From: Deltaproteobacteria bacterium | GTDB lineage: Bacteria > Bdellovibrionota_B > Oligoflexia > Oligoflexales > CAIYRB01 | Length of the DNA: 39,394 bases | NCBI GenBank assembly: GCA_016874735.1 | Contig: VGTI01000038.1 | Span: forward strand, 1-39,394 | Direction of reading: 5' to 3' | Part shown: piece by piece, positions 16,321-23,373 of the stretch | How positions within the stretch are numbered: position 1 is the first letter of the stretch | Layout of the letters: each line of letters opens with the position of its first letter | Notes under the pieces: generated by a model | The model's input: the letters and a program-made list of their open reading frames with translations, nothing else | Told to the model about the DNA's origin: nothing | The model's database searches: none | Position numbers and translations under genes: made by a program

Positions 16321-16325
16321 AGTAA

Positions 16326-16472
16326 CTGATCCACTTAATTGTTGGTAGTTGAGATGCAACTACCTAGTTTCACTACAGCTAGTGGATCGCCCGAACTCAA
16401 GTTCAGGTGAAGCTCAATAACCATCTGTTATAACTAGTGAAATTAACCATTACCAACAATTAAGTGGACCAG
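16326..16472. mobile_element. 147-bp MITE-like element with 22-bp terminal inverted repeats
   Basis: CTGATCCACTTAATTGTTGG and its two following bases (16326-16347) recur inverted at 16451-16472 with a single mismatch; the inner 17 bp are perfect. Inside lie further inverted repeats: GGTAGTTG/CAACTACC (16344-16364), GATCCACT/AGTGGATC (16328-16335 and 16381-16388), and GAACT/AGTTC (16393-16404). The flanks AGTAACT (left) and AGCTAACT (right) could be a degenerate target duplication that overlaps the repeat ends. There is no coding potential. It could be a MITE, a REP/BIME-like repeat or a structured RNA. Confidence 0.65.
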
Positions 16473-16512
16473 CTAACTCAAGCTCCAACGGTTTCCTACC
16501 GACACCTGTAGC

Positions 16513-19145: not shown

Positions 19146-19886
19146 TTAGGAGTTGAGGGCGCCGGCATCGTCCAGGCCGGTCACTGCCTCGTTGTGCCAG
19201 GCAGCATAATCTAGGGGATAAAGATCGGCTTTGGCGCGCTGTAAAACTTCGCGGTAAAGCTCGGCGGCGCGCGTTTTGTTGCCTTGATCAGCTTCGACGC
19301 GTGCCATCATCAGCATGTTGGCCGGACTGTTAGGGTCTAGGGAGTAAGCCTTAGTGGCATACTGCGCAGCTTTCTTACTCGAGCCCACGGAGATAAGACT
19401 TGGTGCGTTGAAATAGATGGCCGCTAGAGCGCGGTAGGCTGCGCCAGATTCGTGGGAGGGAAATTTCTCACTGAGGGTGAGAAGTCGTTTTTCAATTTTA
19501 TCCATGAGCCTGAGGGCGTCGAGGTTGCGTTCGATGCTTGCCACGCCGCCTGCATTTGCCGCCCAGATCAGCACGGCATCCGGGTCTTTACCTTCGGCGG
19601 CAGCAGGTTCAAGGGCAACGAGGCCTTGCCGGAATGAGTTGAGTTTATCCTCATCTTTGGAGCTATATTGGCCAATAAAGTAAGTTAGCTTTGCACGTTC
19701 GACGACCACTTTACTATCCGAACTTCCTCCTAGTGCCTCAAGGCGTGGGCGAATCTTATTCAGGATTGCGGCTTGCTCTTCTGCCGTGATGGGCGCATTA
19801 GGGCCCGTTGACGGCGGCTTTGCCCAACCAAATGTTGAAAGGCTAAATGCTAATATACCAACTAAACTAAAATGTTTTTTATTCAT
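19146..19886 (-). CDS. Secreted TPR-repeat protein (246 aa)
   Basis: The start at 19886 gives MNKKHFSLVGILAFSLSTFGWAK, a clear signal peptide; the longer frame to 19931 would bury it. The mature protein is helical, with TPR-like units (AGVASIERNLDAL...; SKKAAQYATKAYSLDPNSPANMLMMARVEADQG; KTRAAELYREVLQRAK). It is probably periplasmic and a protein-interaction scaffold. It is the last gene of the long minus-strand array, 34 bases after the glycosyltransferase. Nothing in it points to a specific partner. Confidence 0.8.
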   Translation of the reverse strand: MNKKHFSLVGILAFSLSTFGWAKPPSTGPNAPITAEEQAAILNKIRPRLEALGGSSDSKVVVERAKLTYFIGQYSSKDEDKLNSFRQGLVALEPAAAEGKDPDAVLIWAANAGGVASIERNLDALRLMDKIEKRLLTLSEKFPSHESGAAYRALAAIYFNAPSLISVGSSKKAAQYATKAYSLDPNSPANMLMMARVEADQGNKTRAAELYREVLQRAKADLYPLDYAAWHNEAVTGLDDAGALNS

Positions 19887-19920: not shown

Positions 19921-21048
19921 TCACTCAACAACCAAGGACCGATCTTTCCAAACCAAGACGCCGCGCCGACTATAGACTACCGACTCACACAAAACCACCA
20001 TAGCCACGACTATGCCAAGTGGCAAGCGCACCAGCGCCGACCAGGGGGTGCGGAACGCTAGGCGTTGGGCTAACAACAGAACTAAATTAAGGCTCAAGAG
20101 TGCGACGCCAGCTTCTAGAGAGCCGGTCGCAAGAGCCAAGATTGGAGCTAGCAAAAGAGCAACAGTTGTCACTAGGGATGCACACGCAGCGACCCACGAG
20201 TCACCCAGGAGGGCAAACAAGTTCTTACGAAATCCTAGCCGAGCGGCTGCAAGACTTTCATACATCCGCACCGTGAGCTCGCGAGTTGCCAAAGCCACGA
20301 TCAACGTCAAACCTTGCTCTTTAACTAAACGAGCGAGCGCGACATCTTCGATCCGCGAGGTTCTGACGGCTTCATGACCACCGATTTCAAGGTAGGCCGA
20401 ACGGCGCCATGCCATCCATTGACCATTGCCAGTGGCAAGCGATGGATTTTTGGACCTCGGAATCACCATCAGTGGTAGCGAGATCAAGATGGAAAACTGT
20501 GTCACTACGGCTACCAGCGCCTGAACCAACGCGCTGCCACCGAGTTGCCGCGGGAGCGCACTGAGTGTATCTGCACGGTATCCGTTGAGTAGCGCCACCG
20601 TTCCAGCAAGTGCTTCCGGCGCGGCATTTACGTCCGCATCACAGAATACAAGTATTTCTCCCCTAGCCTGGTTCGCGAGCTCCTGACAGGTACGAGCCTT
20701 GCCAGTCCAACCCAGTGGTGGTGGCTGATTGATCGTCAGCAACTTGAGTGTCGGGCCGAGCGCGGCAGCGCGCTCATTGATCATGGCGGCAACGACTGCC
20801 CCAGTCCCATCGGTGGATTGGTCGTCGCCAACGATTACCTCAAAGTCAGAATACTGGTTTGCCAGTAATGAGCCGATGCAGGCGCTAATTTGGTGTGCCT
20901 CGTTACGGGCTGGAACAAGAACGCTAACAAAAGGCTGTTTGCCTAAGGAAAGTTTTTTTGATTTTGATAAACGAGGTGCAGCCAGTACGTTCGCTAAGGC
21001 AATCAGTACAAAAACCACGGTTAGCATTAAACTACACCAGACTAACAT
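19921..21048 (-). CDS. Family 2 glycosyltransferase, CruG-like
   Basis: Membrane-bound GT2 of 375 residues. An N-terminal membrane helix (VWCSLMLTVVFVLIALANVL) precedes the GT-A domain with VSVLVPARNEAHQI, VGDDQSTDGT, the metal-binding DAD in LVFCDADVN and an acceptor region GNGQWMAWRRSAY...SRIEDVALARLV (ED motif). Two or three C-terminal helices follow. This layout matches CruG/CrtQ-type carotenoid glycosyltransferases, and the two genes upstream are an acyltransferase and CruF, which supports sugar transfer to a hydroxylated carotenoid. The start at 21048 has AGGGGG 7 bases before it and overlaps the acyltransferase by 17 bases. Confidence 0.85.
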   Translation of the reverse strand: MLVWCSLMLTVVFVLIALANVLAAPRLSKSKKLSLGKQPFVSVLVPARNEAHQISACIGSLLANQYSDFEVIVGDDQSTDGTGAVVAAMINERAAALGPTLKLLTINQPPPLGWTGKARTCQELANQARGEILVFCDADVNAAPEALAGTVALLNGYRADTLSALPRQLGGSALVQALVAVVTQFSILISLPLMVIPRSKNPSLATGNGQWMAWRRSAYLEIGGHEAVRTSRIEDVALARLVKEQGLTLIVALATRELTVRMYESLAAARLGFRKNLFALLGDSWVAACASLVTTVALLLAPILALATGSLEAGVALLSLNLVLLLAQRLAFRTPWSALVRLPLGIVVAMVVLCESVVYSRRGVLVWKDRSLVVE

Positions 21049-21763
21049 ACGATGGCCCCCTACCCTCGCTGAACAGGTGCTCACCATGAATACTTAATTC
21101 TCTTTGCAGGCCGTCTAGCGCGTCCGTCACTAGTCGCTCAACGAGCTGTAGATCCAATGGGTCCCCATGGTGTGCCATCGGTTGACCAAAAGCGATCAAA
21201 GCTTCAGGCTTACGCTGGGTCATAGGCTCGTAGTGAAATGCGATGGGTATCAGCGTCACTGGCGCGACGGCGTTAGCGACAGCGCGTAGGCCGCTTGTAA
21301 ACTTGAGCGGCCTAGCAAAGCTAGGCCTGATCTCCCCTTGAGGAAAATAACTGCATATGTAACCAGAATCAGCGTTTTCTCGATTGAGCTGGCTCAGACG
21401 ACGAAGCAGCCGCCTAACGGAGCCAGTGCTGCCAGGCGTGATAGGTATGCAGCCTATAAGGCGAAACCAGAAGGTGGCACCAAATTCCCGCGCCAACATC
21501 ACCGAATACACAGGCAACCCAGGAAAAAATCGGCGCTGGAGGAGTAACAGCAGCAGCCCATCCCACCAGCCACAATGATTGGCGACAAAAATCGCTCGCG
21601 CACCAGGTGCCAATTCTGGGCACTGCCCTATCACCCTAACCGCGTGAAAGTCGGACCGCGCCATGCGACGTAAAAACCAGTCAAAAACGGCTCGAGCCCA
21701 CCGGTAATTCCGAGCCACCCGAGCATCCGCATCTCTAAAAGTTGCTGGCGCGGCAGTTGTCAC
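21032..21763 (-). CDS. PlsC-like acyltransferase of the carotenoid cluster
   Basis: Glycerolphosphate-acyltransferase fold. The HX4D catalytic motif is in FVANHCGWWDG and the second motif is FPQGEIRPSF, a variant of FPEGTRS. The start probably is the GTG at 21763, which overlaps the cruF stop (GTGA) and gives 243 residues; the frame is open to 21829, where an ATG would overlap cruF by 70 bases. Because it sits between cruF and a CruG-like glycosyltransferase, it may acylate the sugar of a carotenoid glycoside, by analogy with staphyloxanthin synthesis. A role in phospholipid synthesis is the alternative. Confidence 0.8.
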   Translation of the reverse strand: MTTAAPATFRDADARVARNYRWARAVFDWFLRRMARSDFHAVRVIGQCPELAPGARAIFVANHCGWWDGLLLLLLQRRFFPGLPVYSVMLAREFGATFWFRLIGCIPITPGSTGSVRRLLRRLSQLNRENADSGYICSYFPQGEIRPSFARPLKFTSGLRAVANAVAPVTLIPIAFHYEPMTQRKPEALIAFGQPMAHHGDPLDLQLVERLVTDALDGLQRELSIHGEHLFSEGRGPSYVSLV

Positions 21764-22671
21764 GCTGGTGCATGGGTCTCCGTCTGAGACAGGTCTTGAC
21801 GCATTTTGATGCGAGGGATGGCATGCCATCCCAGCCAGCGTCCCAGCCTAAAGAGGAGCCATCCCATGGCAATCGTTAGACCTAGGGGAATCCAGGCTTC
21901 CACTGCTGCAAGAAGTCCCAGTGGTAGAATAAGGTTTGTGGCATAAAGCCCGACGAAAAACTGAGCCGGTACCTGTTTAGCCCGCACCGGACCAAAGAGC
22001 CTGTCGATCGCGATCATGATGGCGAAACCGGTCACTGCCCAGCCAAAAATATTCAGCGCCGGCATGCCATAGTAGCTACCATCCTGTTCCCAAATCCAAA
22101 ATGGAGTCGTCTTGCTCATGGCTGGGTCTAGGGTCACATCCCAAAGTAGGAGCACGCCGGTGGCTAGCAACAGGCGACTCGTGGTCGCAGAAAACCCCGT
22201 AAGCGCTGCGCTCGGGCCAAGCAGAGCAATGGTCAGTCGGTAGGCAGCAAAGCCCATGAAAAACCAGCTCATGGGTATCAGCCATGGCACTTTGTCGAGA
22301 ATCTTGAAGCCCAGGAGATCGGTGTACTCATAGTGACCAAAGGGAAGTCCCCAACTAGTCCCAGAAAATTCGCTGAAGAGCGAGATCGCATAGACCGCCA
22401 AAAAAGCACCAAGCCACGACCACTTCACGCGTGATGTCAGCATGAGCACAGCAGCCAACCAACCGGTGAATATTTGTGCCTGCGCAAAGGCTTTATATGA
22501 ATAGGGATACAGAGCCATGGCCCAGTCGAAACGAGCAAGTAACTCCGGATTCAAAGTAAAAAACTTGAATCCGAACACCGACACCAACGCAATCACCGCC
22601 GATACGATGAGGACCCACTTAGCCACGCGGTTTAGCGTAGGACTGTTATAATGTTGCAGTTGTCCAGCCAT
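21760..22671 (-). CDS. cruF: CruF-type carotenoid 1',2'-hydratase (DUF422)
   Basis: Polytopic membrane protein of 303 residues of the carotenoid biosynthesis protein family DUF422, whose members hydrate the end of acyclic or monocyclic carotenoids. Recognised segments are SEFSGTSWGLPFGHYEYTD, VPWLIPMSWFFMGFAAY, LLWDVTLDPAMS and FWIWEQDGSYYGMPALNIFG. About seven hydrophobic segments are seen. The start at 22671 (MAGQLQHYN) has GGGGAC upstream. It follows pyrE by 30 bases, and the downstream acyltransferase and glycosyltransferase complete a tailoring module. Desaturase and phytoene synthase genes are not in the window. Confidence 0.87.
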   Translation of the reverse strand: MAGQLQHYNSPTLNRVAKWVLIVSAVIALVSVFGFKFFTLNPELLARFDWAMALYPYSYKAFAQAQIFTGWLAAVLMLTSRVKWSWLGAFLAVYAISLFSEFSGTSWGLPFGHYEYTDLLGFKILDKVPWLIPMSWFFMGFAAYRLTIALLGPSAALTGFSATTSRLLLATGVLLLWDVTLDPAMSKTTPFWIWEQDGSYYGMPALNIFGWAVTGFAIMIAIDRLFGPVRAKQVPAQFFVGLYATNLILPLGLLAAVEAWIPLGLTIAMGWLLFRLGRWLGWHAIPRIKMRQDLSQTETHAPA

Positions 22672-22701: not shown

Positions 22702-23373
22702 TTATTTGAGACGACCGCCGTATGTGGCTAGGTAATCGTCGATACGGGCCTTAATCACGTCATCAATCCACACGCGCCCCAAAATCTCTCGGTTGTGGAG
22801 GCGACTCACTACTTCACTCACTGTCACTAAACTCGCCGTAGGCACCCGCCAGTCTTCGGCTACTTGCAGTAATGCCGCACGCTCGTCCGTGCCACGCTCC
22901 TGACGATCGACGCCGACGACGATGCCGACCACCTCGACCTTACTAGATTCGAGGATGGGCCGCATCTCTCTAAAGCTTGTGCCACCGGTAACAACATCTT
23001 CAACCAAGACTACACGCTCGCCACCGCAGTAGAGGCGTCCGACTAGTGTCCCCCCCTCACCGTGATCCTTGGCTTCCTTACGATTAAATGTGTAGGAAAT
23101 ATCCCTGCCTAAGTTGCGACTCAAGTGATAGGAGGTCATCACCGCCAAGGGAATCCCCTTGTAGGCGGGCCCAAATAAGTTCTCTACCTTGCTACCAAAA
23201 CGCTCAGCGATCACCTCTGCGTATAACTCGGTAATCCCACCGAGGCTTTGGCCCGAGTCAAAGCAGCCTGTGTTGAAAAAGTAAGGCGATAGCCGACCAG
23301 ATTTGGTCTTAAACTCACCGAACCTCAGCGCCCCAGAACGTAGCAGCCACTCGATATAGCGGTCCTGAACCAT
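22702..23373 (-). CDS. pyrE: Orotate phosphoribosyltransferase
   Basis: Makes OMP from orotate and PRPP in pyrimidine synthesis. The 223-residue length is usual. Signatures are FGEFKTKSGRLSPYFFNTG, FGPAYKGIPLA, SYTFNRKEAKDHGEGG and the PRPP loop VVLVEDVVTGGTS. It lies 19 bases downstream of batE and 30 bases upstream of cruF on the same strand, so it is embedded in an otherwise unrelated array. Confidence 0.96.
   Translation of the reverse strand: MVQDRYIEWLLRSGALRFGEFKTKSGRLSPYFFNTGCFDSGQSLGGITELYAEVIAERFGSKVENLFGPAYKGIPLAVMTSYHLSRNLGRDISYTFNRKEAKDHGEGGTLVGRLYCGGERVVLVEDVVTGGTSFREMRPILESSKVEVVGIVVGVDRQERGTDERAALLQVAEDWRVPTASLVTVSEVVSRLHNREILGRVWIDDVIKARIDDYLATYGGRLK

Follow-up and report, generated by a model that had tools for sequence, protein, structure and literature searches.

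What would three overlapping genes for a carotenoid hydratase, an acyltransferase and a glycosyltransferase make together, and is their combination new? These questions are raised by a locus in the window, that is, the whole stretch of DNA analysed here (39,394 nucleotides, contig VGTI01000038.1 of an Oligoflexales genome). The genome to which it belongs (G000) comprises 4.65 Mb in 166 contigs and is 96.8% complete. A first-pass annotation of the DNA proposed that the trio hydrates, glycosylates and acylates a carotenoid. In this study, the proposal was assessed against protein families, the rest of the genome and the corresponding loci of relatives.

Results

The trio occupies the (-) strand. 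The first gene, cruF (21760..22671, (-); ATG at 22671, 303 aa), encodes a member of the Caroten_synth/DUF422 family of carotenoid 1',2'-hydratases. It is followed by a gene for a PlsC-fold acyltransferase (AT; 21032..21763, (-); GTG at 21763, 243 aa) and by one for a GT2 glycosyltransferase with membrane helices (GT; 19921..21048, (-); ATG at 21048, 375 aa). The stop of cruF and the start of the AT gene share the four bases GTGA, and the AT and GT genes overlap by 17 bases (21032-21048). The coordinates and overlaps of the first-pass annotation were thereby recovered, and the family profiles agree with them. The 17-base overlap recurs in all three of the congeners that carry the trio (G002, G004 and G005), which supports the chosen start codons. 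The order cruF-AT-GT is kept in eight relatives, namely these congeners, G030 and four genomes of the family f8 (G013, G020, G026 and G029); together with the recurring overlap, this indicates that the arrangement is not due to chance. Scans for promoters and terminators gave no excess over shuffled sequences.

The neighbours of the trio, pyrE and bat genes upstream and a TPR protein gene downstream, are common to the congeners and none is a carotenoid gene. The pyrE-like phosphoribosyltransferase gene (22702..23373, (-)), separated from cruF by a gap of 30 bases, has the same place in three congeners and is outside the carotenoid pathway. The TPR protein (19146..19886, (-)), which has a putative signal peptide, is encoded in the same direction downstream of GT, is kept after GT in G002, G004 and G005 and is probably outside the pathway as well. 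Elsewhere in the window, a MITE-like inverted repeat of 25 bases (16323-16475; 92% complementary, 103 bases apart) lies between the EF-G gene and a methyltransferase gene; it occurs only once in the window, and the fetched loci gave no further copy.

CruF scored 157 bits against Pfam Caroten_synth (PF04240), over the curated cut-off of 25, in agreement with the DUF422 hydratase annotated at first. Against the NCBIfam CruF model (NF045693), the best-scoring of three CruF models, it reached 138 bits (E 4e-40), under an equivalog cut-off of 400 that is tuned to cyanobacteria. Residues E101 and D178 are kept in 13 of the 14 aligned relatives. A second cruF copy of G020 (L045:5815-6699) has lost both of these conserved residues. 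It adjoins a second rhodopsin frame (contig C2 26746-27279) that matches only parts of the rhodopsin family, and the two are apparently a decayed pair.

The GT belongs to Glycos_transf_2 (PF00535; 63 bits, cut-off 23.3). The product of CruF bears a 1'-hydroxyl and CruG is by definition a 2'-O-glycosyltransferase, so the GT is placed functionally with CruC. It has the features by which CruC is recognised, a GT2 fold with a DXD motif (FCDAD) encoded with cruF and crt genes, and it neighbours cruF in eight relatives. By this functional placement, the GT is likelier to be a CruC-type 1'-O enzyme than a CruG-like one. If it were a CruG-type 2'-O enzyme, the product would be a myxol-like 2'-glycoside in the manner of cyanobacteria. 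CruG (NF045692) is the second-best NCBIfam model for this protein, but the score is 81 bits for a cut-off of 600, another model scores higher and the hydroxyl at hand is the 1' one. Membership of CruG was rejected on these 81 of 600 bits, a CruG-type activity is considered unlikely, and the label CruG-like in the first-pass annotation proved too specific. The model that scores higher, and best of all, is HpnB (124 bits), which raises the alternative that the GT glycosylates a hopanoid and not a carotenoid. However, this score is far under the cut-off of 379, and the GT accompanies cruF in all of the relatives with cruF-AT. Moreover, the crtB gene beside crtI is the sole squalene/phytoene synthase gene of the genome, in which no HpnC/HpnD squalene route was found. 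With no squalene synthase besides crtB, the hopanoid role was rejected and appears barely credible.

The AT matches Pfam Acyltransferase (PF01553) with 37.5 bits (cut-off 23). Its AlphaFold model (mean pLDDT 79) has structural matches to Thermotoga PlsC (5kym; E 7e-6) and plant glycerol-3-phosphate acyltransferases (GPAT); a profile search of acyltransferases against PDB sequences gave no match. This family membership and fold would also suit a PlsC enzyme acting on lysophosphatidate, or another phospholipid acyltransferase, encoded by chance between two carotenoid genes, in which case the pigment would be a plain glycoside. The sequence motifs of the AT argue against such a role. HX4D is present as NHCGWWD, but FPQGEI, the alteration already remarked in the first-pass annotation, replaces FPEGTR, and the Arg of this PlsC block is therefore absent. 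In phospholipid acyltransferases, this Arg helps to hold the acceptor phosphate, and the FPEGTR block that contains it is the mark of a PlsC lysophosphatidate acyltransferase. The pattern N-H-x-x-W-x-D is kept in all of the aligned crt-linked ATs, and the equivalent of the FPEGTR block is FPQG(K/E)(I/L) in most of the order. The genome itself encodes eight other PF01553 proteins; seven are over the family cut-off and well above the score of the AT, and one paralogue (L120) keeps both canonical motifs, NHxxxxD and FPEGTR. Maximum-likelihood analysis placed the crt-linked ATs in one clade with support of 96/99 (18 rows, crt-linked or candidate, some of the branches being long), and the six own PF01553 paralogues in the tree fell outside it. 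The AT thus groups with crt-linked acyltransferases from other phyla, apart from the other PlsC-like proteins of its own genome, and it is kept beside crt genes across phyla. The phospholipid role was rejected on these four grounds (the other PF01553 proteins, the lost Arg, the crt-linked clade and the crt neighbours) and is judged very unlikely. As read from its motifs and phylogeny, the AT is probably a carotenoid-glycoside acyltransferase with a CruD-type role.

Backbone genes had been expected outside the trio locus, and the possibility that the genome has none can be set aside. Genes for crtB, crtI and a lycopene cyclase were all found, in the order crtY-crtE-crtI-crtB on one strand of contig C15. 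Both crtY, a lycopene beta-cyclase gene (364 bits), and crtI (653 bits) are over their NCBIfam cut-offs, and crtE is of the GGPP-synthase type. No CrtO or CrtW ketolase was found in this genome (no match to the CrtW model). A candidate CrtR-like beta-ring hydroxylase (L072) matches the CrtR model with E 1e-33, under the cut-off. A CrtR-like beta-carotene hydroxylase candidate (L132:9338-10207, contig C11) lies near the site of the congeners' proteorhodopsin island and also occurs in G004.

Directly after crtB on contig C15, a gene (L011:9004-9645, (-)) encodes a membrane protein of 213 aa, which is also found near crtB in G008. It has homologues in L134-L138, L140 and L049 and was found in 10 of 38 genomes. 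It has no match in Pfam or NCBIfam, nor in PDB by Foldseek (model pLDDT 82). Its invariant residues D93, H97, R98, E109, D155, E156, H159, E172, H176 and H183 suggest a metal enzyme, which may act on carotenoids. In cruF-less relatives, a different GT2 of a separate clade comes immediately after this gene (L134:5812-6930, L135:8913-10010, L137:7999-9174 and L138:4649-5710), as if the 213-aa protein there would make the hydroxyl that receives the sugar.

Caroten_synth matches occurred in 23 of the 144 relatives searched. The congeners G002, G004 and G005 have cruF-AT-GT at the same site beside pyrE, and no cruF was found in G001 and G003 of the same genus. The trio is also present in G030, of the same order, and lies inside one carotenoid island in the f8 family. 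Beyond these relatives, a Niallia taxi plasmid carries crtN, crtM and then cruF-AT-GT in the gene order seen here, and plasmids of Azospirillum, Gluconobacter and Indioceanicola carry crtI-crtI-AT-GT (for the three plasmid records that lack annotation, genes were identified from their similarity to proteins of the window).

The island of the four f8 genomes (loci L043, L044, L046 and L047) consists of crtE-crtI-crtB, crtW, cruF-AT-GT-crtY::BCD and a gene for a xanthorhodopsin-type pump. The crtW gene (CrtW model E 2e-66) and the rhodopsin gene are in the opposite orientation, and crtY::BCD encodes a fusion of about 700 aa between a lycopene cyclase and a beta-carotene 15,15'-dioxygenase. Among 38 genomes, our own included, rhodopsin (PF01036) was found in seven of nine with cruF and in none of 29 without it. 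The Fisher p of 3e-6 (0.003 when the count is restricted to genomes with crtB or cruF) overstates the evidence because the 38 genomes are related. The best match of the f8 rhodopsins among solved structures is Salinibacter xanthorhodopsin (E 7e-87). In three of the four (G013, G020 and G026; the G029 protein was outside the alignment), Gly156, Tyr207, Met208 and Met211 are as in the carotenoid site of xanthorhodopsin 3DDL. Another xanthorhodopsin-type protein, in G004, has Gly156, and the proteorhodopsin-type proteins of G002 and G005 are without it.

The genome of the window gave no match to rhodopsin (PF01036) or to the BCD dioxygenase (PF15461) in its 96.8% complete assembly. G000 and G004 have an intact locus at the place where proteorhodopsin and crtY::BCD lie in G002 and G005, and neither gene is in it. 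When the 3-kb contig that encodes the G004 xanthorhodopsin was compared with G000, no matching DNA was found, a result that absence and an assembly gap would give alike. An antenna role in this genome was rejected, since the rhodopsin and the dioxygenase were undetected and the proteorhodopsin site is empty.

Discussion

We propose that the three overlapping genes act as one tailoring module with coupled translation. Gamma-carotene or lycopene would be hydrated by CruF at its open (psi) end, giving a 1'-hydroxy carotenoid; the GT2 enzyme would put a hexose on the 1'-hydroxyl, and the AT would esterify the sugar with a fatty acyl chain taken from acyl-ACP or acyl-CoA. The end product would be a membrane-held fatty-acid ester of a carotenoid glycoside. 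In this scheme, we infer the substrates, the sugar, the fatty acid, the 1'-O position and the order of the steps. That the trio tailors a carotenoid by hydration, glycosylation and acylation into a glycoside ester is, on genomic grounds, highly probable. The first-pass annotation is well supported in this respect by the backbone genes found in the same genome, the kept gene order, the crt-linked AT clade and the lost PlsC Arg. Against a glycoside ester, the trio and the backbone cluster occupy separate places in this genus. As a rule, CrtY is a bicyclase, and the amount of psi-end substrate that it leaves is therefore a doubt on this reading.

The association of the trio with a light-driven proton pump in relatives makes an antenna role testable. 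It is plausible from the genes that the f8 carotenoid serves as antenna for the f8 pump. No more than plausibility can be claimed, because Gly at position 156 alone does not give carotenoid binding (PMC3646047), and because salinixanthin binds the freshwater pump Kin4B8 but feeds it no energy (PMC12308411). More tentatively, cruF-AT-GT might be kept in the lineage mainly to build an acyl-glycoside antenna for xanthorhodopsin-type pumps, the hydratase, GT, AT, ketolase, cyclase::dioxygenase and pump being one light-harvesting island; G000 would then keep the pigment module after loss of the pump or before its gain. We consider this possible and somewhat doubtful. Neither a rhodopsin nor an enzyme that forms retinal is detectable in G000 itself, and its pigment probably stiffens the membrane and protects it against light damage.

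The island pairs genes for an acyl-glycoside carotenoid with a fenestrated xanthorhodopsin and a retinal supply, and this could matter more than the trio itself. To our knowledge, few organisms are known to have antennae of the salinixanthin type. In the islands, pump and pigment genes are paired by nature and can be co-expressed, and these pairs bear on which pigments serve freshwater xanthorhodopsins.

The AT was initially regarded as an addition to a known gene pair, a view that did not hold. Sets of cruF, cruC and cruD have been described in the genomes of Chloroflexus and Herpetosiphon, and Salinibacter has separate cruF and cruD (PMC4155588, PMC3368417, PMC2615216), so an AT in the middle is no novelty. 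These sets, for gamma-carotene glucoside esters and salinixanthin, comprise the same three activities as the trio. In contrast to them, the genes here form a single operon with overlaps, at a distance from the backbone genes, and the genome has no detected CrtO or CrtW. In Thermomicrobium roseum (trd_1161-trd_1162), a CruF-acyltransferase fusion lies beside CruC (PMC2615216). By its description, this resembles the trio, with the hydratase joined to an acyltransferase and a GT2 next door, but the cluster also contains crtB and crtI, and the genes here are separate and overlapping. The Niallia plasmid likewise has an AT between cruF and GT. In Planococcus maritimus, the cluster of a GT, an acyltransferase and cruF has the same three gene kinds as here. 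Its CruF and GT hydrate and glucosylate a C30 carotenoid in E. coli, the AT not being among the characterised enzymes (PMC8502411). Unlike the carotenoid proposed here, that carotenoid is built on a CrtN/CrtM backbone. The trio is therefore best described as a new lineage for a known route to carotenoid glycoside esters. What is new here is that four relatives have it in a single island together with crtE/I/B, crtW, a fusion of crtY with a dioxygenase and a pump of the xanthorhodopsin type. Salinibacter combines xanthorhodopsin with a salinixanthin antenna; G000 differs in having no detected rhodopsin, dioxygenase or CrtW, and the f8 relatives, like Salinibacter, join genes for a keto-carotenoid glycoside ester to a xanthorhodopsin-type pump.
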